Source: a virus
Length of the DNA: 23,871 bases
Strand: one strand, 5' to 3'
IMG/VR virus record: IMGVR_UViG_3300028392_001569
Coordinates: 1 to 23,871 of that record
The translations under genes and the position numbers were made by a program. Under the pieces are notes generated by a model. The model made no database searches and was not told where the DNA came from. It saw only the letters and a list, made by a program, of their open reading frames with translations. Position 1 is the first letter of the stretch. Every line of letters starts with the position of its first letter. This document shows positions 7,091-23,871 of this stretch, in pieces.

Positions 7091-7666
7091 TTATTGAAAA
7101 ATTTTATGATTCTTTTCACCATAGATTTTAATATATTTGCCTGCTAGCATATCTGCCATTGCTTCAATCGGGCTACCGGGATAACTGTCTCCCGGTGATA
7201 TCATGTTCAACTCACCCTGACGAACATGTACCAATTCATGGAATACTGTGCGTAAGACATCAACTAGATTGCGATTATTCACGTATACCCAAATATTATC
7301 ATCTCCCATGACATGACCTCCGGTGTGATGATTTGTTTGAGCTTCTTCAGTATCCATGCTCAATTCAATATGTGGTTTATTTTGTACATGAAGTTGTTGA
7401 CAAGCCCACTCACAGAATTTGTCAACTTCATTTTGCAAATCAGAATCAACATCATCCTCATCTATTTTGTTCTTAATCCAATTATCTGGTGTTGTATGAA
7501 ATTTTTTAACAAATAAGTCATGTAACGCTTTTCCAGTAAGATTGTGTTGTTTGGCTACGGTTTGTAGTAGCTTATCTAGAGTAGTATAGTCGTGCTTTTC
7601 TAAGCTAGGCAATTTTGTTGCTAGTTTATTTATTGCTGATTCTGATAAAACTTCCCCAATACGCAT
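7091..7666 (-). CDS. Zinc metallopeptidase-like protein (HELVH) with cargo-type N-terminus
   Basis: A 191-aa protein with two parts. Residues 26-66 form a small helical module (DYTTLDKLL, then ALHDLFVKK and TPDNWIKNK) that looks like a reusable phage domain. Residues 80-191 contain the zincin motif HELVH (143-147) and a downstream glutamate in SPIEAMAD (E168), as expected for a gluzincin-type zinc site. Substrate is unknown. The N-terminus MRIGEVLSESA has a Leu-Ser-Glu before Ser near residue 9. This resembles the short capsid-targeting leaders of T4 internal proteins, which gp21 removes after Leu/Ile-x-Glu. It may therefore be packaged in the head; that is inference. It follows the 71-aa gene by 12 bases without a strong ribosome site. 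Confidence 0.8.
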   Translation of the reverse strand: MRIGEVLSESAINKLATKLPSLEKHDYTTLDKLLQTVAKQHNLTGKALHDLFVKKFHTTPDNWIKNKIDEDDVDSDLQNEVDKFCEWACQQLHVQNKPHIELSMDTEEAQTNHHTGGHVMGDDNIWVYVNNRNLVDVLRTVFHELVHVRQGELNMISPGDSYPGSPIEAMADMLAGKYIKIYGEKNHKIFQ

Positions 7667-7925: not shown

Positions 7926-8738
7926 TTATTCTAAATTTTTACTACATTTAGTTCTTTTAGCATTAGTTAATGCACCGTAATCCACACTCCACTCTTTGCC
8001 GGGTTGCAATTCAACAGCATTTTTTGGGAACGCATATTGTACACCAGCTTGTTGCTGAATTTGTGCTACTGTAACACGAAACTTAGTTAAGTCATTACCC
8101 AAGTTAGGATAAGGGGCAGTATGAGGGAATAGCCATCCTGCTATTTCTTTAGTTTGATTATTGATAACAATCTTGTAAAAACCATGAGGAACAACGACGC
8201 CGTTGCCGATTTTCTTGTCTTGTGCATTATATACTCCACCTACATAAACAATGTAACTTTGATTGTGCTGAACTGCCCAACCACGTACACTAGTTTCTAG
8301 TAATTTCCATATTCCACGATTTAATGAACCAGCTTGTGGACTCATGTTGGTCATTAAAAAACTTTCAAACTCCACTTGAGTATCCCATGATAGGTCACCG
8401 TCTGGACTCATATGTCCCTTGTCATAGCCTGTACCAGCATAGTCATCTGGTCTAGCACCATTTGGTACTGATTGGTCAGCTACAAAAGCATTTGTTCTTG
8501 CTACACATCCTAATGCATTTTGTGGTAATAGCTCATACGTCACAAACTTTGGTAGTTTAGCTGACGCATCGTAGCCTACTAAGTATGCTTGACGGCAGAT
8601 AGGTGCTACATCAATAGTTTGTGGGAAACCATAAGGACTATGTACTTGACATTGTTGTAATGGTAGTGGTTGACGTTGTTCCCAAGCAAAGGCATTTGCT
8701 GATAGTATTGCTACTATCATTGTTAAAATTTTTTTCAT
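7926..8738 (-). CDS. Secreted DNA/RNA non-specific endonuclease (NUC1/NucA type)
   Basis: A 270-aa beta-beta-alpha-metal endonuclease. Residues 1-18 are a classical Sec signal peptide: MKK, a hydrophobic core, then ANAFA before W19. The active site motif YDKGHMSP (105-112) carries the general-base H109 and corresponds to DRGH of Serratia nuclease. LNRGIWKLLE (139-148) supplies the metal-binding N140. Cysteines (30, 48, 78, 264) could form disulfides in the periplasm. The enzyme would cut DNA and RNA with little sequence preference, in the periplasm or outside the cell. Roles could include destroying DNA injected by competing phages or salvaging nucleotides. Its ATG overlaps the stop of the 63-aa gene (ATGA), at the end of the cargo/Dps operon. 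Confidence 0.9.
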   Translation of the reverse strand: MKKILTMIVAILSANAFAWEQRQPLPLQQCQVHSPYGFPQTIDVAPICRQAYLVGYDASAKLPKFVTYELLPQNALGCVARTNAFVADQSVPNGARPDDYAGTGYDKGHMSPDGDLSWDTQVEFESFLMTNMSPQAGSLNRGIWKLLETSVRGWAVQHNQSYIVYVGGVYNAQDKKIGNGVVVPHGFYKIVINNQTKEIAGWLFPHTAPYPNLGNDLTKFRVTVAQIQQQAGVQYAFPKNAVELQPGKEWSVDYGALTNAKRTKCSKNLE

Positions 8739-9378: not shown

Positions 9379-12300
9379 TTACTTACTTATAACAAATACT
9401 CTATCACCTACTAGAATACCTGTATAGTTTCCTATACCTCGTTCTCCTAATACTGCTTGAGGAACAACGATTCGTTGTCCACCACGTGGTCTAATATCAG
9501 TTGGGGATATTTCAACAAGTCCATACTCTTTTCCGTCAACAGTTATAGTCTTTGCTTGTCTATCGGCACTATCAGCACGGACTAAACCTTTAAAAGGATC
9601 TGATGTGTCAGATGAAGCAGTAGGTGCGGTAGCAGATGGAGTATTATCTGGTGCTGTCACGGTTGCTGTGGGTTTTAATCCACCGGTAAAGCCACCTTGT
9701 CCATCAGGGGTAACTCTAGCATGTGCACCGGCTGCGCCTAATGCCATAGAACCGGCTAATGCGGCTGCGCCTAGTTTTTCTCTCCAACCCTCGCCTATAT
9801 TTTCGTTAGATTTTTTCTTTGTGTTGACATTTATAGCTGAACCATGCCGGTCTGGATTAGGATCTTCTCTGCGTTTGCGTTGTGCGGCACTTGCACGACC
9901 TTTTTTACCTAGGCTATGCGCTTTTGCTTGTGGCAAACATTTTGGTTTACCTTCTCCTGGTTCTCTTGCACATGGACCTTTAATCTTTCCTTTAGTATCC
10001 ATGCGAACCCATTTTTCTTTATTGAACCAATCATGTAAACTTTCATCTGCTTGTTCAATACCTTCTAAAATAGAACTCTCATTCTTCTTGCCGCCGTTGC
10101 CCCAGTTGCTTGCGCCTTTTTTACGACACTTGACTAATGCACCACTAGCGTAAGCACTAGGCCATACACTATAACGGCTCTTGACTTTGTAGTAGCAAGC
10201 ATCTTTCTTTTCGTTCATTAGTTCTTCACTGACCATCTCGCCACCGCAATGTGGGCAACTATGTTGTTCTTCCGCTACACCTTTATTAAATGCTTTGTTA
10301 AGAATATCCGATGCCGTTTTGGTTGTTTTTTCAGGGCGTTCCATTTTGCCGTAGTATTGCTTCTTACCAGAATCTGGATCTTTCTTGTCTCTCGAACCGT
10401 ATGTGCCATGACTTACGTGACCGTCTCGTCCTGGCGGAGTTTGTGATTTGTCCATTTCTGATAGGCCCTTCGCCACACCTTCCTTTGTATTCTTTCTACA
10501 GTCTGGATATTGTTTTCCAAACATCTTTTTGTTACCCTCTTTGTGATAACCTTTCCAACAGGCTTCTTCTAAGTTGTCATGTGAATGATCTCCGTGTGTT
10601 TGACACATTCCGCAATCCTCACAGACCATTTCCATCTCAATACTTTCATTATGCTTTTTCTTGCCAGCACAGTGAGCTTTTTGTGAGAAGCCTTTGGGGT
10701 GGCTACAGTTGATACTGCTTTTGTATTTTTGACTCCATTCCTCTGCTACACGTGCAACAGGTGTTGCTGCCACTGCTGGTTTAGCACCTGGTGTTGCTGC
10801 CATTGCTGGTTTTACTGCTGGTTGTTTAAATGTAGTATTCATACTAGAGTAACCAGTTGGGCCACCGCTGAAATTCGCAGGTTTTGCAACTGCTGGTTTA
10901 GCGTACTTTTCCATACCAGGCATCTTCATTACATTACTAGCATTAAACCCCTGAGGTGCTGTAGCTCCGGCCGCTTTAGCCACAGGTGCTACTTGAGGTA
11001 TAGTTGTTTTTTGAGCAGGAACTGCCATTTTGGTTGCAGGTGCTGCCGCCGGTGCTGATACTATAGCTGGTGTAGTTGTCTGAATTGGTTTAGCACCTGG
11101 TGTTGCTGCCACTGCTGGTTTAGCACCTGGTGTTGCTGCCACTGCTGGTTTAGCACCTGGTGTTGCTGCCACTGCTGGTTGACCTGGTGTTGCTGCCACT
11201 GCTGGTTGACCTGGCACTGGTATTTTCATGTTAGTAAACACTTGTTTAATAGTAGCTGTTGGCACGCCAGCTCGTTGAACAATACTAGCAATGTCTAAGC
11301 TGTCAGTTGGGCTACCTGCTTTCTTCCATGCTTGTAATAGTTTGTCAGCAGTAACTTTAGTTGTTAAGTTAGTGCCTTTGGTCTTGGCCCAGTCAACTGC
11401 CTTACCTGCGGCGCCTTTGATGGTGTCCATGATCCCTTCATCAAGTTTGCGGTGACGTTCAACTATCTTACCGATCAGTAAGAAGATTTGACTTTCAGTT
11501 AGTTCTACTGATTCCTTAACAGGCTTAAGCATACCAGAAGCTACTTTTCCTGCATAGTCTTTGGCTCGCATTATATCGTTTGCGCTTGGGTTACTAGGGT
11601 TGACAGCAAACTTTGCAAGACCTTGTTTGAATGCTTGGTCATACGAACTACCACCACCATCTGGTATAATATTATATGTTGGTTGTCCAAAGTCACCTGT
11701 TTGACCAGTTGCAGTTTGCGTATAACCCGAGCCTTGCATCCCTTGAGCACGATTCATATAGATTTGATCTAGTTCAGATTGACCAGGTGCTCCTTGTGCT
11801 CCGGGTAATTCTTGTTGAGGCGTACCTTTTAACGCTTGACCAATCTGGCCAGCGGCATAAGCCATGCCACCAGTTTTAGCACCGGCGTATGCGGCACTAC
11901 TGAACTTTTCGCCTTGCAATAGTTTGTCTACTAGTTTGAATAGACCTAATGCGGCTGCACCACCAATACCTGCACCTGAAATACCAGCAGCCGCAATCAA
12001 TGCTGAATAAATTAAACTCTGTGCAATTGGATGTTTTTTAGCAAAATCACGATACTTCTGAACATACTGCATGACACCTTGATCGCCACCAGTTGCTTGT
12101 TTTAATTGTTCAGCAGCCTTGTCATACATAGCGTCAACACCTTTAATAGGTCCTGAATTTTGTACTTTAGTTTTTAACTCTTCCCAGGCTTTACTTATAG
12201 CGGCAGTAGCATCTTTGCCTCTGCCAAGCATAGTGCGATTACCGCCAGCCGCTGTTGCACCCTGTTCTACTTGTTGAAAAATTTGATTAATTTGATCGGC

Positions 12301-13041
12301 TGTTAGTTGTGCTTCATATAACTTCTTACCAGCACTTTCCCATAACTTGTATGTGCGTGTTTCAGTAATTATTGATTTACTGTTAGTTGAGCCTTCCGCC
12401 ACACCTTGCTCTCTAATTTTTAATTTGTCTGCAGGATTGCCACCACCAAACATATTGTCAAAAGCATCACGTGCTCGTTGTTGAGTTTGTTTTTGCTGTT
12501 CCTTGCGGTCTAAGGTTTTTTGTTTATTAGTACCTTTTGATATGTTCTTCATCATATTGTCAAAAGGTTTATCACCAGTGGCTTCCGCCATACCTTGTTG
12601 TCCGCCCTTAGTTATTAAACCAATTTCTAAATCAGGACGATTCTTTAATATAGAATTTCTTATATTCAAGGCAGCGTCTTTACTATTGAATGTAACTGAT
12701 TTTCCACCTTTGCTCCATACTTTGCCATTGATCTTTAAGCCCCAAACTTGAGGTCTTACTTGTTTTGGTACATCTAAATCATGTCGCTCATCATCACCGC
12801 GATTGAATGCGCCGCCCACTCCACGAAATGGAATGCCTGTTTCTGTCACATCTTTTTTTCTTTCATCATTAGCAAACTGTTTCTTAGTTGCTTTGATAAT
12901 ACCACTCATACGCTTGTCGCCACGCTTATAGTTACCTTCTTTATCAGCGGCAGTAGCATCAGCACCTGCGGCTGTTTTGTAGTCACCTAATTTTTTATTA
13001 GATAATTCGTTTAGTTGTAAACCTTTTAAAATGCTACTCAT
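9379..13041 (-). CDS. 1220-aa modular protein, proposed capsid-packaged cargo polyprotein
   Basis: A mosaic of short modules split by [L/I/V/M]-x-E sites: after E153, E216, E235, E243, E516, E535, E767, E826, E862, E923, E993 and E1084. Modules: Lys-rich start (1-90); a small fold with VWGLKINGKVWS (99-110); a helical part with a Gly/Ala-rich hydrophobic stretch (341-372); a Gln/Gly linker (405-470); helices (536-605); a Pro/Ala repeat linker (609-763); Cys/His-rich modules (779-850, 929-932); basic Cys-containing modules (947-980, 1001-1067); a Sec-like signal (1085-1108) and a C-terminal domain (1109-1220). Site style matches T4 gp21 cleavage (Leu/Ile-x-Glu), so processing in the prohead is inferred. 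ATG 13041 overlaps the preceding stop (ATGA). I do not assign a single enzymatic function. Confidence 0.85.
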   Translation of the reverse strand: MSSILKGLQLNELSNKKLGDYKTAAGADATAADKEGNYKRGDKRMSGIIKATKKQFANDERKKDVTETGIPFRGVGGAFNRGDDERHDLDVPKQVRPQVWGLKINGKVWSKGGKSVTFNSKDAALNIRNSILKNRPDLEIGLITKGGQQGMAEATGDKPFDNMMKNISKGTNKQKTLDRKEQQKQTQQRARDAFDNMFGGGNPADKLKIREQGVAEGSTNSKSIITETRTYKLWESAGKKLYEAQLTADQINQIFQQVEQGATAAGGNRTMLGRGKDATAAISKAWEELKTKVQNSGPIKGVDAMYDKAAEQLKQATGGDQGVMQYVQKYRDFAKKHPIAQSLIYSALIAAAGISGAGIGGAAALGLFKLVDKLLQGEKFSSAAYAGAKTGGMAYAAGQIGQALKGTPQQELPGAQGAPGQSELDQIYMNRAQGMQGSGYTQTATGQTGDFGQPTYNIIPDGGGSSYDQAFKQGLAKFAVNPSNPSANDIMRAKDYAGKVASGMLKPVKESVELTESQIFLLIGKIVERHRKLDEGIMDTIKGAAGKAVDWAKTKGTNLTTKVTADKLLQAWKKAGSPTDSLDIASIVQRAGVPTATIKQVFTNMKIPVPGQPAVAATPGQPAVAATPGAKPAVAATPGAKPAVAATPGAKPIQTTTPAIVSAPAAAPATKMAVPAQKTTIPQVAPVAKAAGATAPQGFNASNVMKMPGMEKYAKPAVAKPANFSGGPTGYSSMNTTFKQPAVKPAMAATPGAKPAVAATPVARVAEEWSQKYKSSINCSHPKGFSQKAHCAGKKKHNESIEMEMVCEDCGMCQTHGDHSHDNLEEACWKGYHKEGNKKMFGKQYPDCRKNTKEGVAKGLSEMDKSQTPPGRDGHVSHGTYGSRDKKDPDSGKKQYYGKMERPEKTTKTASDILNKAFNKGVAEEQHSCPHCGGEMVSEELMNEKKDACYYKVKSRYSVWPSAYASGALVKCRKKGASNWGNGGKKNESSILEGIEQADESLHDWFNKEKWVRMDTKGKIKGPCAREPGEGKPKCLPQAKAHSLGKKGRASAAQRKRREDPNPDRHGSAINVNTKKKSNENIGEGWREKLGAAALAGSMALGAAGAHARVTPDGQGGFTGGLKPTATVTAPDNTPSATAPTASSDTSDPFKGLVRADSADRQAKTITVDGKEYGLVEISPTDIRPRGGQRIVVPQAVLGERGIGNYTGILVGDRVFVISK
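9718..9789 (-). other. Internal Sec-type signal sequence inside the 1220-aa protein (residues 1085-1108)
   Basis: Directly after the IGE1084 site the protein reads GWREKLGAAALAGSMA and then LGAAGAHA before R1109. It has a basic n-region, a 16-residue Ala/Gly/Leu/Met core and an Ala-His-Ala end typical of signal peptidase I sites. It is hidden in the full protein and would become N-terminal only after cleavage at E1084. Function is inferred. Confidence 0.6.
10756..10812 (-). repeat. Second, diverged copy of the AATPGAKPA-type repeat
   Basis: Residues 744-762 of the 1220-aa protein repeat the AATPGAKPAVAATP unit of the main tandem array about 280 bases away, with one copy changed to AMAATPG. 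It forms the end of the Pro/Ala linker, just before the VAE767 site. Confidence 0.85.
11086..11217 (-). repeat. In-frame tandem repeat coding for a Pro/Ala linker
   Basis: Three perfect 30-base units (11091-11120, 11121-11150, 11151-11180) are followed by shorter variants (27 bases at 11181-11207). They encode repeats of PAVAATPGAK or PAVAATPGQ at residues 609-652 of the 1220-aa protein. All units keep the frame. This is an extended flexible linker of the kind found between domains; unit number could change by slippage. Confidence 0.95.
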
Positions 13042-13835
13042 TTTGTTTTACTTTCTTTAGCTTTGTGTGCATCATCCCATGCTTTGTCAGTTTTGACATT
13101 ATATTCTTTGCCACCTGCACCAATATCAGCAACTCTTGAGCCAACTTCTTTACTAGTCTTTACTACTGCCTTGTTACTCTTGTCTACGTTTTTTTGTATC
13201 TTTTTAGCAAAGTCAATCTTGCCTTCTCGTTGCATTAATTTTTCATCGTAGTATTCTTTTACTGCGTTTAGATAATCGTTTGCTTTGATAAGTTTTTCTT
13301 GTACCCAGCCTTCTAATCCTTCTTCTTCTGACTTATTTTTTAATAGTTCGTAGATTACTCTGGCATTCTTCATTGTAGCTAGTACATCACTACGTGCCAT
13401 TTCAACTTCATGGTCAACACGACTTTGACCATGCTTTGTAAATCCAGTTTTTCTCGTGCGGCCATAACCAGGAACTACTATGATATCATCTTCTTGTAAG
13501 TCAGCTTCGTTAACTTTTTCAGGCTTCTTGTTGTCTTTTCTATTAGCGGTCAACTCTTTGCGAGCTTCTTGCTTAGTCATCTTATATTTCTTTTGAAATT
13601 CTTCGTCAGATAATCCATCAACTCCACCTTTCAAGTCCATTGAAAGTTGGTTCATTGCTCCCTCATTGATGCTGTTAGCAAAAGGCTTACTAGTCTTTTT
13701 ACCTTTGAATAGTGATCCTGCTTTTGTATTTCCATAGACACTAGGACTGCGAGTTTGCATTTTGACAAAACTATGCTCTACTGGGGCAACGGATCCCGAT
13801 GTAGTAGTTTCTTGTACGATTTGATTGATTTTCAT
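13038..13835 (-). CDS. 265-aa modular protein, probable packaged protein
   Basis: ATG 13835 (MKINQIVQETTT) is preferred over the in-frame ATG at 13874: a GATAAATAC late-type box lies inside the upstream stretch, 21 bases before 13835, the same spacing as at 7894. The N-terminus recalls the short capsid-targeting leaders of T4 internal proteins. Candidate gp21-type sites follow: INE58 before G, VNE110 before A, LQE115 before D. Residues 60-100 are basic and helical (DEEFQKKYKMTKQEARKEL); residues 139-200 form a helical module beginning DHEVEMARSDVL and including EGLEGWVQEKL, which looks like a reusable phage domain. The rest is Lys-rich. It leads the operon that contains the 1220-aa protein, Dps and nuclease. 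Function is unknown. Confidence 0.75.
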   Translation of the reverse strand: MKINQIVQETTTSGSVAPVEHSFVKMQTRSPSVYGNTKAGSLFKGKKTSKPFANSINEGAMNQLSMDLKGGVDGLSDEEFQKKYKMTKQEARKELTANRKDNKKPEKVNEADLQEDDIIVVPGYGRTRKTGFTKHGQSRVDHEVEMARSDVLATMKNARVIYELLKNKSEEEGLEGWVQEKLIKANDYLNAVKEYYDEKLMQREGKIDFAKKIQKNVDKSNKAVVKTSKEVGSRVADIGAGGKEYNVKTDKAWDDAHKAKESKTK

Positions 13836-13886: not shown

Positions 13887-15089
13887 TTACCAGGGTTCGA
13901 TGTTAAATTGCTTGGCCAACTCTAAAAAATGAGGCTTTGTTTTAAAAAGATTTTGATTTCTAAGAGAATCCCAATCTTTCTGTTGTTTGAAGAAAGTAGC
14001 AACTTCTTCGTATGCTAAGTTACGTGATGGTTCAACTTCGGCTTCTAGCATCTTAACTAAAGCATGTATAGTATAATTCATGTTTTGATTTAATGCTTTT
14101 AAACGATCTATTTCACGCTCTATAACCCATGTTGGTATAATTTTAATATCATTTATATTGGTGTGACTAGTTACTTTGCGGTATGTACTATTTTGATATT
14201 TAAAATTTTCAATGGTGCTTAAATATACCATCAAATTTGACAGATTATCAATATTTAAATTTTGTACTACTGATGAGACATGGAAATCGTTCCTAGTATT
14301 ACTTAATATTTTTAAGTTATTTTGTATTTTATTCCAATTACCGGGCCATCTGATGTACTCATATGTATCCCCCTCACCGTCTACACTTACTGCAATGTGT
14401 ACATTCTTAAAGTGACGATGTAATTCATTTTTTCTTTCTAAATCAACTTGCAGATTAGTTGAAAGATCCAATGTGATTTTTGAGGCTCTTCCATTAGCTA
14501 TTAAATGTGAGCAAATTAAATCATAGAAATCATTTATTAATGGTTCACCACCATACATATGAATTTTTTCTAAGTTTTCACTATTGTCTATAAATTCAAT
14601 GATTCTTTGTTGAGTATCATCATTAAATTGAATAATTGGTGTAGGTGGTCGTTGGTAAATAATGTCAGTTTGTTTTGCTATTAATGAACTGCACCAAGGA
14701 CTACACATTCTACATGCTAAATTACATTTATTTCCTAAAAATAAGTTAATATGAAATATATTTGAAAAATCAATTATTTTGTTATATACATCAGAATTTC
14801 GTAAATTTGTATTTCCTAAAGTTCTCTCACTCTCACCATTAATTCTTTCACTCTGCCAACATGTATCGCATAGTGAATTTTTTTCTCCGGCAACCATTGA
14901 TTTTCTAAGATTAACTATTTGGGTGTTGTTCAATACCTCATTAAAGTCATCATGTATAACTAAAGGATTTTTTATTTTATCATGGTATACTTTAGTATGC
15001 GGGCCATTTGGTGCACAACAAGGGTCTACTGTTCCGCTGTTTGATATGGTGATACTATTGAATACATATTTACAAATAGTATCGTTCAT
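13887..15089 (-). CDS. Radical SAM enzyme with N-terminal SPASM/twitch-like Cys cluster
   Basis: A 400-aa radical SAM protein. The 4Fe-4S motif CNLACRMC (C122, C126, C129; CX3CX2C) is preceded by the typical LFLGNK strand. YGGEP (179-183) is the SAM-binding GGE motif and VSVDGEGDTYEYIR (234-247) is a later core strand. N-terminal cysteines C6, C24, C25, C74 and C77 lie in a 'C...i.i...G.vdpCC ... LCDTCW' pattern. This is like the auxiliary-cluster region of SPASM or twitch enzymes, but placed before the core rather than after it. Such enzymes modify peptides or other substrates; the target here is unknown. ATG 15089 overlaps the stop of the 680-aa gene (ATGA). A nearby cargo peptide or the 30-aa protein could be a substrate, but nothing proves it. 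Confidence 0.9.
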   Translation of the reverse strand: MNDTICKYVFNSITISNSGTVDPCCAPNGPHTKVYHDKIKNPLVIHDDFNEVLNNTQIVNLRKSMVAGEKNSLCDTCWQSERINGESERTLGNTNLRNSDVYNKIIDFSNIFHINLFLGNKCNLACRMCSPWCSSLIAKQTDIIYQRPPTPIIQFNDDTQQRIIEFIDNSENLEKIHMYGGEPLINDFYDLICSHLIANGRASKITLDLSTNLQVDLERKNELHRHFKNVHIAVSVDGEGDTYEYIRWPGNWNKIQNNLKILSNTRNDFHVSSVVQNLNIDNLSNLMVYLSTIENFKYQNSTYRKVTSHTNINDIKIIPTWVIEREIDRLKALNQNMNYTIHALVKMLEAEVEPSRNLAYEEVATFFKQQKDWDSLRNQNLFKTKPHFLELAKQFNIEPW

Positions 15090-17128
15090 ACCTTACCATT
15101 TGGGCTTGCTGTTGGTGGAATGCCGGCCCTTGATGTAAGCCAGCTAAATGCTTTTGCGTTCTTTTTGATGCTATATGGTCCTACATCTACTGTTAATGCT
15201 GTCTTAAAACGTGGATCGTTTTTTTCTTTTTCACTAGGGATATAGCCACTTGCTTCTGCTAAGCCTTGCTTTAGTTGTTGAGCAAGTGAATCAATATATT
15301 GTATAGTGTTATGTGATAATTCAAAATCAGCATTCTTTTTCAAAAACTTTACTCTATCAACTGGTTCTAAATGAGGATCATTGGGTGATCCATTTTTTAA
15401 TTGTTCAGCTTTAGCATTGAATAAAAAATTAAAGAAATTAGCCCTGTCATAACCTATTTTTTTAGCAAGAGAGGCTCCAATAATATCTGCTTCTTGTTCA
15501 TTATTTCTAGCATCAGATGCCAAAGAAAACCCATGATTCATAATTATATGTCCACACTCATGACCTAAAATAAAAGCAAGCGTATCATTAGGAGCATCCC
15601 AAAATACAGTTGTTTCGATACCAATTTGACCGGCTTGTACACCTATCGGTTTACCATTTACTACCCTAGATGATACTCTAGAATTTGCGGCATTTCCTTG
15701 ACGAAATACTTTATCACCTAAAGTAGTGTTTACTTTTATTTTTTGAATTACTTTAACCCAATCAGGATGCGATTCGGCTATACTATTAGCAAATGATTTT
15801 AATATAGCATAGCATCTAGTTTCTAACTCACCTTTTCTTGGCTTCCAAATTTGTTGCATCTGCTCTGGACTTATTTCAGTAGAAGATTGATATTGACCAG
15901 CCTTAGCACTACCTGTTACCGCTGCCGCGCCCATGCCTTTTAAGAATCCTCTACGGCTGATATCTTCATCTACCGGTTGCTTTCTACTTAATTCGTATAT
16001 AACTTTATTACCAGTATCAGCACGAAATGCTCTAAATCCCCATGCTCTAGCATAACGCTGAACTAAACTATCATATAGTCTTGCTCTACTTTCTGAGTTT
16101 TGTCCATCTTCAACTTCTTTACTAGCTGAAAAGATTACTTTGTTGGGCTTGTATTTTTTAATGAATGTTTGAATAGCACTTAATACAGTAGCAAATACAC
16201 GTTGTGCATCACCCTCACCGGTAACTTCTTGGCTGTTGTTTCTGTAGAACTCAACACTCCATGCTTCTTCCTTATCTTGATTATATCCTTTGTTGAACAT
16301 AATACTTAGATAATTACCATCATCCATTTTAGCATAGGCATCAACGTCACCGTAATCACTTTTTTCCCATTTAAGTTTATAAGGTTGGTCAAAGGTTTCA
16401 TCAATGTTTTGATACATAGTTTCAATGGTTAATACCTCACTATGCAACTTGTTTTTTAAATCGTGTAATTTTGTAATATACCCCTGACTACGCAATGCTT
16501 TATATGCTAAATTCTCAGGACCAAACTCGCCACCTTTATCTAACCCGGCTTGACGATATTGCTTAATCTTCTTTAATACTTTTTGAATTTTAGTTAAGTT
16601 CTTTGAGTCTAATGCTCTTTCTACAATATCAAGTAATTTTTCATACTTCAATCTTGTAGCTGATTGGTCAAAGTTAGCTCTACGCTTTGTAGGAATACGC
16701 AACCACTTATCATTTTGTAAACTGTATTCTCCTAACGACACTGATGGTTGTGCGGCATCTTGTATATATAACTCTACGGGAACCCCATGAATAGTTATAT
16801 CATGGTTATCGTTGTATAATGATTTCTTTGCGTCAAAGAATTCACGGTATATATCATTATTAGGTAAATCATTTATATTGACTAAGAGATGTAAATCCAA
16901 GTCACTGTGTTTTGTATAACTGTATGCGGCGTTAGACCCAGAGATAGTAATATCTCTAACATCTAAATCATTGATACCCATTTCTTCTAGGAAGTCTTTT
17001 GCTATTTCTTCTAGTTGATTTTTAACTTCAGGACGCAATTTATTTCCTGCCCACAACGCAGGGTTAAGCTTGTCATGGAAAGTGACGGCGTCAGATATTT
17101 TGAAGGAATCAAGCTCTTTTAAGTTCAT
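15086..17128 (-). CDS. Nucleotidyltransferase / unknown domain / internal Tat signal / M48-type peptidase fusion
   Basis: A 680-aa protein from ATG 17128 (a TTG one codon upstream is also in frame). Residues 1-150: Pol-beta-type nucleotidyltransferase with GSNAAYSYTKHSDLDLHL (64-81; D76, D78) and probable third acid E119 in VELYI. Residues 250-383: an unknown alpha/beta domain (FATVLSAIQTFIKKYKPNK, LYDSLVQRYA). VDE388 is followed by the Tat consensus SRRGFLK (391-397) and an Ala/Gly core. Residues 420-620: M48-like peptidase with HECGH (523-527) and NNEQEAD (E544 or E546 as third ligand). LAE625 precedes a 55-aa module beginning ASGYIPSEKEK. IDE244 and these sites resemble gp21 cuts, so release of separate domains is inferred. 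The start codon lies 3 bases after a late-type box and hairpin. Confidence 0.85.
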   Translation of the reverse strand: MNLKELDSFKISDAVTFHDKLNPALWAGNKLRPEVKNQLEEIAKDFLEEMGINDLDVRDITISGSNAAYSYTKHSDLDLHLLVNINDLPNNDIYREFFDAKKSLYNDNHDITIHGVPVELYIQDAAQPSVSLGEYSLQNDKWLRIPTKRRANFDQSATRLKYEKLLDIVERALDSKNLTKIQKVLKKIKQYRQAGLDKGGEFGPENLAYKALRSQGYITKLHDLKNKLHSEVLTIETMYQNIDETFDQPYKLKWEKSDYGDVDAYAKMDDGNYLSIMFNKGYNQDKEEAWSVEFYRNNSQEVTGEGDAQRVFATVLSAIQTFIKKYKPNKVIFSASKEVEDGQNSESRARLYDSLVQRYARAWGFRAFRADTGNKVIYELSRKQPVDEDISRRGFLKGMGAAAVTGSAKAGQYQSSTEISPEQMQQIWKPRKGELETRCYAILKSFANSIAESHPDWVKVIQKIKVNTTLGDKVFRQGNAANSRVSSRVVNGKPIGVQAGQIGIETTVFWDAPNDTLAFILGHECGHIIMNHGFSLASDARNNEQEADIIGASLAKKIGYDRANFFNFLFNAKAEQLKNGSPNDPHLEPVDRVKFLKKNADFELSHNTIQYIDSLAQQLKQGLAEASGYIPSEKEKNDPRFKTALTVDVGPYSIKKNAKAFSWLTSRAGIPPTASPNGKV
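15899..15970 (-). other. Internal twin-arginine (Tat) signal-like sequence (residues 387-410 of the 680-aa protein)
   Basis: SRRGFLKGMGAAAV matches the S-R-R-x-F-L-K Tat consensus exactly. It is followed by a short, weakly hydrophobic Ala/Gly core and SAKA, a possible signal-peptidase site. It sits in the middle of the protein, three residues after the VDE388 site and ahead of the M48-type peptidase domain. Confidence 0.65.
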
Positions 17129-17129
17129 C

Positions 17130-17147
17130 AAGTATTTATCAATACTT
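17130..17147. repeat. Perfect 7-bp inverted repeat before the 680-aa gene
   Basis: AAGTATT, 4-base loop, AATACTT. It overlaps the stop of the 30-aa gene and ends 1 base before the start region of the next gene, so an RNA hairpin could affect translation of the fusion protein. Confidence 0.7.
17132..17140 (-). promoter_or_regulatory. Late-type box GATAAATAC 3 bases before the 680-aa gene
   Basis: Matches the motif but is too close to ATG 17128 to leave a leader. It overlaps one arm of a hairpin, so the similarity may be accidental. Confidence 0.35.
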
Positions 17148-20073: not shown

Positions 20074-20796
20074 TTAAACTTCTTCTGGGCGTTTTTCTAA
20101 TTTATAGCGTTTTCCAAGCATGTCCCCATGCATTAACGCTAGATAGCTTAATGTGCTTTCATCATCGTAATCAATAAAGTGACTGGCATTACTGAAACGG
20201 TATCTCCAACTAGTTTGATTGTTTTTGGATCCTAATGCCCAGTGTCTAAGAGCAGGGCTAGGATACAACTTTTTGTTTTTCTTAAACATACTGTGTAGGT
20301 CTTCAGCAAAAGAACCCTCAACACGCCTAGATTTTAGGTAAACTCTAAATTTATGTTTGGGCTTACGCACAAAATGCTTAACTCCAATATAATTAGATAT
20401 TTGTGCCTGTGTTAAATCTATTTCAATACCTGGAATACTAGTTGTAATATTCTTTAGTTCTTGTAAATCATTACTGAATACACCTACAGTATTGTGTTCG
20501 ATTCTAATTGTAGAATTTTTCTTCATTTTCAATTCATTGCGCCATTTAAGAAATGATGCTAGAACTGTTAAATTTTCACGAACCTCTTCTCGTTCATATG
20601 CTAAACGATGATAGGCTGTAGCAGGTGCTTCTAGTCTTTCGATTAATTCTTGAATATCATCTTTAATATACCATGTATAACGAACACCTATTAGATTAAA
20701 TCTAGCTCGGTATTCGTACTTGTTATAGTAATGTTGGTCTCGATATTCGTAAAAATCAACATCGGTGTTGTCTTCAGCTAATTTCAATAATCCCAT
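20074..20796 (-). CDS. Unknown basic 240-aa protein
   Basis: I do not recognise it. It is rich in Tyr, Lys and Arg. The N-terminal half has YYNKYEYRARFNLIGVRYTWYIKDD and a helix with HRLAYEREEVRENLTVLASFLKW quoted here in part only as landmarks near residues 23 and 63. The second half (about 95-175) reads as alternating strands with IRIEHNTVGVFSND and KHKFRVYLKSRRVEG, a basic patch that could contact nucleic acid. The start ATG 20796 lies 23 bases inside the end of the ClpA-like gene, so the two are co-translated. A link with the unfoldase (adaptor or substrate) is possible from context only. Confidence 0.7.
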   Translation of the reverse strand: MGLLKLAEDNTDVDFYEYRDQHYYNKYEYRARFNLIGVRYTWYIKDDIQELIERLEAPATAYHRLAYEREEVRENLTVLASFLKWRNELKMKKNSTIRIEHNTVGVFSNDLQELKNITTSIPGIEIDLTQAQISNYIGVKHFVRKPKHKFRVYLKSRRVEGSFAEDLHSMFKKNKKLYPSPALRHWALGSKNNQTSWRYRFSNASHFIDYDDESTLSYLALMHGDMLGKRYKLEKRPEEV

Positions 20797-23047
20797 CTTC
20801 GCCTACTCTTGCTGTTGCTTTTTGAGCAACTGTATATTCAATGCCCTCATCGCCCATCACCGCTGTTACGGTTGCGTTTTTGATTCGTTCAAATAAAATT
20901 TTCTTACTAAGAGGAACACGAATCAATTCGTCAATTTTTCGTGCTAACGGTCGAGCGCCCATTTTCTTATCGTAACCTTGCTCTGCCAGATATTCAACTA
21001 CTGGCTCAGATAAATTAATAGTAATGTTGTGTTTATCCAACAATTGTTTTTTCAATTCATCAGAAAACTTAACAACAATCTTCTTAATCGCAAGCATATC
21101 AAGTTTATTAAACTTACATACCAAATCAATACGATTTCTGAATTCTGGTTTAAAGAATTCCTTCAGTGCTTTGTCATCCTCACCCAATTTCTCTTGACTA
21201 CCAAAGCCAATGTTGTTGCGTTCACTATCACTACTACCTAAATTACTTGTCATAATAATGATAGAATTTTTGCAGTTAACTTCTTTACCATTCGATCCAG
21301 TAACACGACCTTCGTCTAGCATTTGTAAAAAGATGTTGAAGATATCTGGGTGTGCTTTTTCAACTTCGTCAAATAATAAAATGCTGTGTGGATTCTTGCT
21401 TAAATCATTAATCAATCGTCCACCGCTTACTTGACTATCGCCAAAACCAACATAACCAGGAGGAGGACCAATCAAACTTGATACTGAGTGTCGTTCACCG
21501 TATTCACTCATATCATATTTGAGTAATGGCATATCAAGGTTCTTGCTCAACAACTTAGCCAATTCTGTTTTGCCTGTACCTGTTGGGCCTAAGAACAAGA
21601 AACTTGCTGTAGGTTTAGTCTCACTACCGATACCTGCAAATGAAACATAGACACGCTCAAGTACTTTGTCAACAGTTTCATCTTGACCATATAATTTACC
21701 CTTGACATTGACTTCAAGAGTTTGAATACGATCCATATTATCTCCGTTGAGTTTATCAGCAGGTACTCCGGTGAATTTCTCTACTTGGTCAAAAATTAAT
21801 TCTTTGGTAATTACAACACCGTTGTTACCCAATACTCTTTGTTTAGCACAGGCTGCATCTAATAAGTCAATACTCTTGTCAGGGTTTTTGCGGTCATGAA
21901 TGTAACGATCGGCTGACTCAACTGATGCAGTAATAGCATCTTCTCCAATCTTTACACTATGAAAGTCACTCAATCGTTGACTCAATCCACTTAGAATACG
22001 AACAGTGGTATCATGATTGGGTTCATCAATTGATACACGATAGAATCTACGCATCAATGCACGATCTTTTTCAAAACTGTCATAGTATTCTTCCCATGTT
22101 GTACTAGCAATAACTTTCAACGTGCCTTTGGTAATTGCAGGCTTAATCATGTTAGCAAAGTCAACACTACCACCACTACCACTTCCACTGCCACTCATAG
22201 TGTGCGCTTCGTCAATAAACAAAATTGCTTTCTTTTTTGTGTTTAACGCTTCTAATACTGCTTTAACTTTTTCTTCAAAGTCTCCTCTATATTTGCTACC
22301 AGCAAGTAATGAACCAACTTCAAGTGAATATACCTCGTGATTTAGAATGAATTCAGGGCAATCTCCCATTGCAATCATATTAGCAAGACCTTCAGCAATA
22401 GCGGTCTTACCAACTCCCGGATCACCTACCATCAAAACATTTGACTTAAATCGTTTAGCAAGAACATTAATAATATCGTCAAGTTCTTTGACACGTCCAA
22501 TTAGTGGTTCAAGTTTTCCCTTACGTGCAAGGTCAGAAAGATTAGTTGTGTATTCTTCTAAAATTTCTTCTGCTTGACCTTCTGATAATTTAGATGTGAA
22601 TTCAGCACCCTTATAAGTTTTTTGCCAATGAGTTAAAAATTCCTGTTTGTTGACACCGTATTTCAATAAGAAATAATGTGCATGACTATTACCTTCACTT
22701 GCAATTGATAGGTACAAATCAATAGTTGTGACTTGTCTGCGACCGGTAAACAATACTTGTGTCACAGAACGATTCATGGTTCGTTCAAGACTATTAGTTT
22801 TTCTTGGTTGAATATCTTCTGCGGCTACACCTTTAAGTTCAATTGCGTGTAGGCTATCTAAATATGCACCAATTTCTTGACTTAGTAAATCAGAATCTGC
22901 TCCAAAACCGTCTAAGCATTTTTTAAATGGGGTATGTGTGACTAATGCGAGTAATAAATGTTCTAAGGTGCAATATTGGTGTTTACGCTCTTTGGCATAA
23001 ACAATGGCTTGTTCGATAATGCTTTCAATTTCCGGTGAATTTGTCAT
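20774..23047 (-). CDS. clpA: ClpA-like AAA+ unfoldase
   Basis: A 757-aa Hsp100 protein, like E. coli ClpA (758 aa). Residues 1-145: Clp N-domain. D1: Walker A GDPGVGKT (208-215), Walker B ILFIDE (275-280), pore loop KYRG (252-255). D2: Walker A GPTGTGKT (487-494), Walker B ILLFDE (556-561), pore loop GYVG (531-534). There is no long middle coiled coil, which excludes ClpB. IGF at 613-615 in RNNIGFGSQ lies where ClpA and ClpX keep the IGL/IGF tripeptide that docks on ClpP. No clpP lies in the window, so it may use host ClpP or act as an unfoldase alone. An AATAAATAA late-type box lies 17 bases before ATG 23047. Confidence 0.93.
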   Translation of the reverse strand: MTNSPEIESIIEQAIVYAKERKHQYCTLEHLLLALVTHTPFKKCLDGFGADSDLLSQEIGAYLDSLHAIELKGVAAEDIQPRKTNSLERTMNRSVTQVLFTGRRQVTTIDLYLSIASEGNSHAHYFLLKYGVNKQEFLTHWQKTYKGAEFTSKLSEGQAEEILEEYTTNLSDLARKGKLEPLIGRVKELDDIINVLAKRFKSNVLMVGDPGVGKTAIAEGLANMIAMGDCPEFILNHEVYSLEVGSLLAGSKYRGDFEEKVKAVLEALNTKKKAILFIDEAHTMSGSGSGSGGSVDFANMIKPAITKGTLKVIASTTWEEYYDSFEKDRALMRRFYRVSIDEPNHDTTVRILSGLSQRLSDFHSVKIGEDAITASVESADRYIHDRKNPDKSIDLLDAACAKQRVLGNNGVVITKELIFDQVEKFTGVPADKLNGDNMDRIQTLEVNVKGKLYGQDETVDKVLERVYVSFAGIGSETKPTASFLFLGPTGTGKTELAKLLSKNLDMPLLKYDMSEYGERHSVSSLIGPPPGYVGFGDSQVSGGRLINDLSKNPHSILLFDEVEKAHPDIFNIFLQMLDEGRVTGSNGKEVNCKNSIIIMTSNLGSSDSERNNIGFGSQEKLGEDDKALKEFFKPEFRNRIDLVCKFNKLDMLAIKKIVVKFSDELKKQLLDKHNITINLSEPVVEYLAEQGYDKKMGARPLARKIDELIRVPLSKKILFERIKNATVTAVMGDEGIEYTVAQKATARVGEDGIIEIS

Positions 23048-23064
23048 GGTTTTCTTTTGTAAAA

Positions 23065-23073
23065 TTATTTATT
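23065..23073 (-). promoter_or_regulatory. Late-type box AATAAATAA before the ClpA-like gene
   Basis: Located 17 bases before ATG 23047, overlapping the stop of the DnaJ-like gene. Only the TAAATA core is kept and the ribosome site is weak. Confidence 0.4.
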
Positions 23074-23871
23074 TGGATTTAAAACGTAATATACTTTGTG
23101 TTATATCGTCATCAATTATATCAGGTACAAAGGGTTTTAACAAGATTATTTGGTCTCCAAAGATAGAAGAATTTGGAATTGGCATTCCTTCGCCTGCTAT
23201 TTTAAGGTGCATAAAAGGCTGTGTTTTAGGTGGGATTCTAACTATCAATGTTTTTCCTGATATGGTAGTAAATTCAAAATCACTACCCACAATTAAATCC
23301 AACACAGACACTTGCTGATTACAATACAAATCTGTTCCTTTGCGGTCAAACCTTAAATGAGGTGCTACTCTAAATTCTACAACCAAACTTGCATTTGGTA
23401 TAAGATTATCGTAACGCATTTGACCCCCATCAATTACACTTTTTGGTATTTCAACATTAACTGCATATACACTAGTAGGTGTTTGTAATCTTAATGATTG
23501 TGAACCGCCACTATAACTTTGTTCCAGTGTAATATGAATTGATGTTCTATATGCCGGCTGCTGATTATGCTGGCGCTGATTATGTTGATTAAACATTTGC
23601 CCAAAAAAATCATTCATATCACCGTTGAAGTTAAAATTAAATCCCCCCGGAGCTTGCTGAAATCCTTTAAAGGGATTTCCTTGCGGCATAGGTCTATCAT
23701 ATTGTTGACGTTGTTGTGGATCTGAAAGAATACGATATGCTTCTTCAATCTTTTGAAATGTAGCGGTATCACCACCCTTATCAGGATGATGTTGACTTGC
23801 TAGTTTCCTATACGATTTCTTAATTTCGTCAGGTGTAGCTGTTTTAGCTACACCCAACGTTTGATAGTGGT
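23069..23871 (-). CDS. DnaJ/CbpA-like co-chaperone, N-terminal few codons beyond window
   Basis: The frame stays open through the right edge, reading HYQTLGVAKTATPDE as in J-domains, so the true start is just outside; an internal TTG at 23857 is not a start. The J-domain has the catalytic HPD in ASQHHPDKGG and ends near QQYDRP. A Gly/Phe/Gln/Asn-rich linker follows (NPFKGFQQ, GGFNFNFNGD, then NQHNQRQHNQQ). The C-terminal part contains beta-sandwich substrate-binding domains (YRTSIHITLEQSYSGG, IPPKTQPF, LKIAGEGMP). There is no zinc-finger, so it is CbpA-like. It would recruit host DnaK. The ClpA-like gene follows directly, making a chaperone/unfoldase pair. Confidence 0.93.
   Translation of the reverse strand, partial: HYQTLGVAKTATPDEIKKSYRKLASQHHPDKGGDTATFQKIEEAYRILSDPQQRQQYDRPMPQGNPFKGFQQAPGGFNFNFNGDMNDFFGQMFNQHNQRQHNQQPAYRTSIHITLEQSYSGGSQSLRLQTPTSVYAVNVEIPKSVIDGGQMRYDNLIPNASLVVEFRVAPHLRFDRKGTDLYCNQQVSVLDLIVGSDFEFTTISGKTLIVRIPPKTQPFMHLKIAGEGMPIPNSSIFGDQIILLKPFVPDIIDDDITQSILRFKSK

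Follow-up and report, generated by a model that had tools for sequence, protein, structure and literature searches.

RNA viruses are well known for polyproteins that a viral protease cleaves, and in tailed phages prohead processing is, to our knowledge, mainly a matter of propeptide removal or of the breakdown of core proteins. In this study, a gene encoding a protein of 1220 amino acids (aa) was analysed, which lies on a 23,871-nucleotide (nt) stretch of viral DNA (IMG/VR record IMGVR_UViG_3300028392_001569, positions 1 to 23,871; hereafter the window), a piece of a phage contig. Its closest described counterparts are the internal proteins and Alt of T4, and polyvalent proteins. T4 IPI-III and Alt carry a capsid targeting sequence and are substrates of gp21, an S77 protease. 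The T-even internal proteins are diverse defence proteins in which only the tag is conserved (PMC3012670), and Alt is cut at ITE-6 and LTE-619 (PMC5694885). In phiKZ, 201phi2-1 and SPN3US the prohead protease cuts ejection proteins after x-x-Glu, and their entry into the cell is expected (PMC5694885, PMC10052503); in SPN3US, 13 of 14 sites remove N-terminal propeptides and one a C-terminal propeptide (PMC10052503). Polyvalent proteins, thought to be delivered with the DNA, combine many domains in one phage protein, and among them P1 DarA and DdrB undergo processing (Iyer et al. 2017, PMC5512222).

The system described here shares with T4 (IPI-III and Alt) an S77 protease in the same virus and diverse payloads, and a short N-terminal tag ending in [LIVM]xE is found on other genes of the contig and on proteins that start with modules of the 1220-aa protein. 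In T4 each gene carries one payload, whereas here up to eight GVAE joints per open reading frame (ORF) link payloads; a repeated DNA adapter and export-type signals behind the sites are features of this system and not of the T4 internal proteins. T4 gp22 (annotated as degraded by gp21) and gp67 (annotated as a precursor to internal peptides) are likewise single precursors with many cutting sites, but these are core proteins. The giant-phage motif is A-x-E or S-x-E, in contrast to [LIVM]xE here, and the available texts on those ejection proteins do not describe a chain split into several payloads. Processing of polyvalent proteins is ascribed to built-in peptidase domains, whereas Pfam and PHROG profile scans found neither a peptidase domain nor a portal/MuF fusion in the 1220-aa protein. 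The open-licence literature on phage polyproteins, prohead proteases, internal head proteins and Tat signals with phage heads, judged by titles and abstract starts, yielded no account of a comparable polyprotein or adapter. A search of the same kind returned no paper on shuffling linkers and one algal-virus paper on DUF6321/DUF5872, and the string QGVAEG did not occur in the open-licence literature searched.

The best explanation of the data presented below, to which we assign a probability of about 0.7, is that the gene encodes a modular polyprotein that is packaged in the head and that the prohead protease cleaves. The ORF is real and runs on the minus strand, from 13041 down to 9379, and the plus strand is full of stops there. 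At 99.99% identity, the window matches the opening ~23.9 kb of G001, a 524,565-bp IMG/VR phage contig. A search for a prohead protease, proposed beforehand, found an S77 (gp21-type) gene in G001 (PF03420, E 1.9e-27) together with gp23 (PF07068, E 4.4e-99). The head genes of G001 follow the order: a 596-aa protein, which we take to be the putative portal, a 74-aa protein starting MKLFEMFDE↓A (the arrow marks the expected cut), an acidic 276-aa protein, the S77 protease, a 367-aa protein and gp23. By its position between protease and gp23, the 367-aa protein is a candidate scaffold. It contains KLVAE↓GR and RFVAE↓SA, and gp23 starts MSKVLLE↓SRWDETKEALLE↓GLKGTRRSTMGVILE↓NTKKQLLAE↓SS; the scaffold-like protein and the beginning of gp23 are rich in [LIVM]xE↓[GASN], with VAE↓G and VAE↓S in the former. 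These likely head substrates thus appear to obey the rule that also holds for the polyprotein joints, which suggests that the G001 protease is specific for such sites.

A preceding sequence-only reading of the 1220-aa protein had listed twelve glutamates in [LIVM]xE sites, of which 11 are placed exactly; the site given as E923 is in fact E924. Nine of the 12 precede G, A or S, in line with the 'mostly' of that reading (the exceptions are E767↓E, E862↓M and E924↓E). Its 'about a dozen' proved to be an undercount, as the protein holds 23 [LIVM]xE against 9.8 expected in shuffled sequences, a control proposed beforehand, and only one of 5000 shuffles reaches 23. The forms [LIVM]xE[GAS] (10 vs 2.9 expected; 3 of 5000 shuffles) and G[VM]AE (3 vs 0.06; 0 of 5000) are enriched as well, and the controls [LIVM]xD (7 vs 10.3) and [LIVM]xK (24 vs 22.0) show no excess. 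The longer form QG[VM]AE or KGVAE occurs, as had been noticed, in three copies (E153, E216 and E924), and a fourth, degenerate copy is EGVAK (aa 854–858), in which Lys replaces Glu. A Pfam scan at E 0.01 gave a sub-threshold match to DUF5872 as its only match in this protein, and no set of recognised conflict domains was found in the chain. Structure prediction was poor, with a mean pLDDT (predicted local distance difference test) of 41.6 for aa 244–612 and 44.0 for the stretch around aa 921–1080.

That the sites fall at module borders, as had been claimed, was borne out with homologs. Relatives were collected from 78 loci found by a viral-contig search, which together with three long contigs gave 3294 distinct ORFs. 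These hold the same modules in different orders, and homology often ends at the glutamates. Breakpoints were defined as places where homology to the window protein starts inside both proteins; copies from the virus itself (L001, L002 and that in G001) were excluded, and 50 distinct left-hand breakpoints were obtained. A [LIVM]xE lies within 5 aa of 30 of these in the query (null 9.2), of 26 in the relative (null 9.6) and of 23 in both partners; with D, K, G, A, S or Q replacing E, 0–3 of 50 are found in both partners. The K control is somewhat raised on the query side (15 vs 9.2), 20 of the 50 breakpoints have no [LIVM]xE nearby in the query, and any E whatever is near the breakpoint in both partners in 30. 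As an example, the module EWSQKYKSS... stands behind VARVAE↓ in the window protein and elsewhere, after unrelated sequence, behind NVEE↓, VDE↓, LAE↓, DVAE↓, EMDE↓, GLKE↓ and LDE↓. [LIVM]xE is therefore both in excess and located at module borders, the pattern looked for in a substrate of an S77 protease.

Modules that are internal in the window protein open other proteins directly behind a tag, MRxxEFLxE↓, which resembles that of T4 internal proteins: T4 IPII and IPIII start MKTYQEFIAE↓A, one relative found here starts MKTYQFITE↓T, and gp24 in the T4 record starts MAKINELLRE↓S. Where the window protein has the tag MSSILKGLQLNE↓, relatives mostly carry MSNILKG(I or L)..NE↓ or, ahead of the same first module (aa 13–67), MKPSDFLTE↓. 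The pattern M[RK]xxxF[ILV]xE at residues 1–9 was found in 8 of 620 G001 genes and in 5 of 380 and 5 of 413 genes of two other contigs (null means 0.15, 0.08 and 0.09), and when E was exchanged for D, K, Q, N or S in a very similar pattern, 0–1 genes were found in the three contigs. The excess is seen only with the full pattern; when [LIVMF]xE was simply counted at residues 6–14 of every called gene, it did not clearly exceed the counts for other residues. Fourteen G001 proteins carry the tag in a looser form; among the ten that were scanned with Pfam, one matches GH19 chitinase, one amidoligase, two DUF6321 and one leucine-rich variant repeats above cut-off, and the remaining five had no match above it.

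For a comparison of tagged and internal copies, 312 proteins starting M[KR]x3-7[LIVMF]xE gave 409 collapsed pairs. Aligned with the Glu of the tag, the internal copy has [LIVM]xE in 339 of the 409 (random mean 51.5, maximum 74), and other residues at this place give 11–29. Some 'internal' copies merely reflect an ORF called with too early a start, so that its own N-terminal tag seems internal (e.g. SVMKIKQITE↓). A stricter recount, in which pairs with a Met 5–14 aa before the aligned place were dropped (302 pairs; 100 tagged and 134 internal proteins), gave 256 of 302 (random mean 38.1, maximum 54; eight other residues 4–23). These figures are descriptive, because the pairs are interrelated and BLAST tends to extend through a shared Glu, yet the contrast with the controls is still large.

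At the joint QGVAE↓G the conservation extends to the DNA, as an adapter of ~20 bp, AGCAAGGTGTGGCGGAAGGC, which codes for the protease-type site. When only loci detected through protein similarity were considered, 95 in-frame contexts of GVAE were reduced to 69 joints with both flanks distinct; the exact GGTGTGGCGGAA is present in 45 of these and CAAGGTGTGGCGGAA in 35, and, counted from the first base of the core, conservation extends 6 nt upstream and 14 nt downstream. About 0.3% exact cores would be expected from codon usage (GGT 0.57, GTG 0.10, GCG 0.06 and GAA 0.79), a value calculated from G001 only and applied to the joints of all contigs. At least 120 viral-contig stretches contain the 18-mer CAAGGTGTGGCGGAAGGC, and 20 contain a synonymous 18-mer of mostly commoner codons. 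GVAE lies in the longest open frame in 318 of 319 distinct core contexts (197 loci); base conservation in this set is biased because loci L150–L268 were picked by the 18-mer, the 69 joints above giving the unbiased figure, and the reading frame was unselected. In bacterial genomes the 18-mer was found in 26 stretches among 257 billion bases (including actinobacteria and Xanthomonas), which we take to be mostly chance occurrences, as about 7 would be expected with random bases. A QGVAE in a sliding-clamp-like ORF (L155) was rejected as an adapter joint; its relatives have QGAAE, AGATE and similar strings there.

Homology switches at the adapter. When all pairs from 302 contexts are kept, 123 have a single flank in common at the adapter and 6 have both, and at 60–135 nt from it 4–10 pairs are one-sided and 41–63 two-sided. 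At 180 nt, with pairs >90% identical around the adapter excluded, the two kinds are about equal (21/17 and 30/29), which is expected if the next joint is near. Locus L019 has the adapter and locus L020 has none between the identical flanks GSCAKNKTNE and EQHSCPHCGG. The 157 non-redundant adapter ORFs carry 1 to 8 GVAE each (median spacing 77.5 aa, 208 spacings), and a strict tag-like start is found in 41 of the 93 that are complete. With GVAE masked, they still contain 543 [LIVM]xE[GAS] against 263 expected (D control 228 vs 285).

Export-type signals stand behind the sites. Sixteen non-redundant Tat-like signals were recognised by pattern, of which 13 sit more than 40 aa inside chains; in 11 of these, [LIVM]xE lies within ten residues before the Arg pair (null 1.9; 0 of 2000), although part of the set belongs to one family and the cases are thus not fully independent. 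Of the three N-terminal Tat-like signals, two directly follow a tag (MRATEFVTE↓MDRRGF and MRASEIIAE↓DLTRRGF). Sec-like stretches follow joints as well, at IGE1084↓GWREKLGAAALAGSMALGAAGAHA in the window and at QGVAE↓GWKD... elsewhere; the scan for them was loose, without a null, and its 98 stretches include many unrelated ones. The presence of such signals in mid-chain, Tat or Sec, is understandable if cutting takes place ahead of them. G001 encodes at 514599–515795 a tagged (MRATEFINKE) GH19-matching protein with a mid-chain Tat-like signal behind IIAD, which is not [LIVM]xE.

We propose that the gene encodes a modular polyprotein of a large T4-type phage, whose N-terminal tag would take the chain into the prohead core, where the S77 protease would cut after [L/I/V/M]-x-Glu at the joints. 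Judging from the sequences, the sites quite probably serve as prohead cutting sites, a step that rests on the presence of the protease gene, on the head proteins encoded by the contig and on the parallel with T4. Cutting would free perhaps ten small proteins, often basic or cysteine-rich; the 'ten or more' of the sequence-only reading is the tally if all border sites are cut, and E1177 and E1200, which sit within the last module, may go unused. The polyprotein proposed there is supported in part, as the sequences show a chain of exchangeable modules, gp21-type joints and an S77 gene in the contig; the adapter seen in the DNA, the tags of T4 type on other genes and the export-type signals behind the sites were not part of that reading. 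The freed proteins would remain associated with the DNA in the head and pass into the host along with it, for which, by analogy with T4, the balance tips slightly in favour. Some would then begin with a Sec or Tat signal, newly N-terminal, and go to the host envelope; that the signals direct export after cutting is conceivable, with the odds slightly against it. New modules would be gained by recombination at the adapter, which keeps the frame and supplies QGVAE↓G. Combining these elements, a plug-in delivery system is conceivable, with the odds somewhat against it, in which one ~20-bp sequence would serve as recombination joint, frame keeper and code for a capsid-protease site across many phage contigs and build head-packaged polyproteins; prohead cutting would unmask the Sec or Tat signals, and one virion might thus deliver mixed cytoplasmic and envelope-directed effectors before phage gene expression.

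Several observations weigh against such a polyprotein. The 1220-aa protein's own tag, MSSILKGLQLNE, is not of the MRxxEF type, and two of the 13 internal Tat-like signals lack a preceding [LIVM]xE (IIADDISRRGF in G001 and TDEDLSRRGF in L053). Controls in the adapter ORFs are raised too (Q 292 vs 215, K 437 vs 390), and the other G001 genes longer than 150 aa (364) have a mild excess of [LIVM]xE[GAS] (406 vs 301). Adapter joints have V at P3, where the head proteins favour I, L and M. Neither S77 nor gp23 is present in 17 of the 20 relative-bearing records; 16 of these are 45.6–116 kb long and may be fragments, and one of 315,852 bp has a weak relative. The two genes co-occur in three records, G001, G002 (348,701 bp) and G008 (346,856 bp), the latter two pairing S77, gp23 and chain relatives on one contig as G001 does. 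The S-SM1 relative is annotated as hypothetical only, and module matches also occur in the 37.8-kb P-SCSP1 phages, so the modules are not restricted to large T4-type phages. Finally, the last 4089 bp of G001 (520477–524565) repeat 172924–177012 at 99.6%, and the contig may be misassembled; the same-virus link to the protease depends on its being sound, with the same pairing seen in G002 and G008. Because of this repeat, the 463-aa chain at the end of G001 is a copy of part of a 1173-aa chain and not a third chain. A further stretch, L094, is ~79–82% identical to parts of the window, and it and the end repeat may reflect a duplicated block, a strain mixture or misassembly.

An adapter kept at the DNA level with codons rare in G001, at which homology switches, is also what would be seen if the joints were recombination scars only, short common DNA that allows in-frame swaps between multidomain virion or host-takeover proteins that stay whole. 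We regard this as unlikely, as many joints without adapter DNA retain [LIVM]xE (LDE, VDE, ITE and VLE), the two cyanophage chains examined follow the amino-acid rule without the adapter codons, the tags match those of T4 internal proteins and end in [LIVM]xE, and export-type signals are placed behind joints.

Somewhat less probable still is a role as scaffold or core proteins, as for T4 gp22 and gp67, in which the chains would be chopped and mostly lost or left as small peptides, with modules that have no host function. The site density is akin to that of the scaffold-like protein of the same contig and some sites are crowded (E227, E235 and E243), but the modules are individually conserved (aa 921–1080 is 94–96% identical in the two closest non-identical copies) and common to separate tagged genes, and other tagged proteins match enzymes (GH19, amidoligase), as the window neighbour matches M48. 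We know of no exchangeable modules common to tagged genes for gp22 or gp67. Internal translation starts, with which T4 is annotated in some genes (gp21', gp17' and gp26'), could also yield separate pieces instead of cutting, but this is very improbable: no start codon is conserved behind the adapter, where information content is near background after +14, and no ATG, GTG or TTG occurs within 10 codons ahead of the Tat-like signal of the window.

Related chains are present in marine cyanophages, namely the T4-GC 119 proteins (S-SSM5_108 and SSM1_115) and an S-RS29 relative, which hold the same modules in other orders. The two chains that were read (S-SSM5 and S-RS29) have [IVF]xE↓[GA] joints; they are shorter (401 and 504 aa) and have no adapter DNA at the seven joints examined. 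In S-RS29, S-SSM5 and S-SM1 the chain sits between the small terminase gene and plastocyanin. The S-SSM5 chain matches 490 phage records in tblastn, of which 467 are named Synechococcus, Cyanophage or Prochlorococcus, and the remainder include Pelagibacter (10), Planktothrix (2) and Roseobacter (2) phages. Among the matches listed, for 60 records, a single one, in S-B43, bears the annotation 'structural protein'.

The features of the window are collected in Table 1. Its other genes include (i) a DNA/RNA non-specific endonuclease (7926–8738; PF01223, E 1.1e-41) with a signal-peptide-like start by eye and, near it, (ii) a ferritin-like gene (PF00210; 8926–9366), (iii) a 400-aa protein with a CNLACRMC stretch (13887–15089), which we presume from this motif to resemble a radical SAM enzyme, and (iv) adjacent Clp-ATPase-like and DnaJ-like genes (20774–23857; by eye). 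A 389-aa cytidylyltransferase-like neighbour has just two weak matches in the phage collection, and virion-borne cyanophage enzymes of this kind (PMC3037559, PMC10665884, PMC9602691) are for this reason only a loose parallel. Downstream of gp23, at 357815–360736 of G001, three adjacent genes are built of repeats like KAIFGYG...TNLVSNTGVVATDTTGVGTAR.

Table 1. Coordinates of the 1220-aa protein, its parts and the neighbouring tagged or signal-bearing ORFs in the window.
Feature	Coordinates	Strand	Basis
1220-aa modular protein, putative head polyprotein	9379..13041	-	ORF, sites, homology breakpoints
N-terminal tag MSSILKGLQLNE↓, aa 1-12	13006..13041	-	sequence
Module LSNKKLGDYKTAA..., aa 13-67; opens other proteins directly behind a tag	12841..13005	-	homologs
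Joint QGMAE153, variant adapter, 1 mismatch in 14	12583..12597	-	sequence
Exact adapter CAAGGTGTGGCGGAAGGC = QGVAE216↓G	12391..12408	-	sequence
Large module aa 244-516, hydrophobic centre; sites E227, E235, E243 precede	11494..12312	-	
Module aa 536-610 behind LDE535↓	11212..11436	-	
PAVAATPGAKP repeat linker and spacer, aa 611-767, ending VAE767↓	10741..11211	-	
EWSQKYKSSINCSH module aa 768-826; own gene in G008, MRSSEFVFE↓KWSEKYKSS...	10564..10740	-	homologs
CWKGYHKEG...YPDCRKN module, aa 827-862	10456..10563	-	
Degenerate adapter EGVAKG, Lys replacing Glu	10465..10485	-	
Joint KGVAE924, variant adapter, 1 mismatch in 14	10270..10284	-	
CPHCGGEM and DUF5872-like module, aa 925-993	10063..10269	-	phrog_727; DUF5872 below cut-off
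LHDWFNKEKWVRMDT... basic module, aa 994-1084	9790..10062	-	phrog_23735
Last module aa 1085-1220; Sec-like signal peptide GWREKLGAAALAGSMALGAAGAHA↓RV directly behind IGE1084↓	9382..9789	-	by eye
681-aa neighbour, same style: N-terminal domain, VDE389↓, Tat-like signal, M48 peptidase match	15086..17131	-	
Internal Tat-like signal DISRRGFLKGMGAAAVTGSAKA of 681-aa protein, aa 390 on	15887..15964	-	Pfam TAT_signal 19.5 bits, below cut-off 22.7
Tag MKINQIVQE↓ of next gene, internal ATG of 278-aa ORF	13809..13835	-	
Tag MRIGEVLSE↓ of 191-aa ORF	7640..7666	-	

Because related chains occur in isolated marine cyanophages, the question is directly testable. If confirmed, the polyprotein would represent a phage route to many payloads per gene, with a joint that eases the addition of payloads, and export signals hidden in mid-chain would become understandable. 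Unrecognised virion-delivered proteins could be searched for by the tag (MRxxEFLxE), by the rule for the joints and by the DNA of the adapter.

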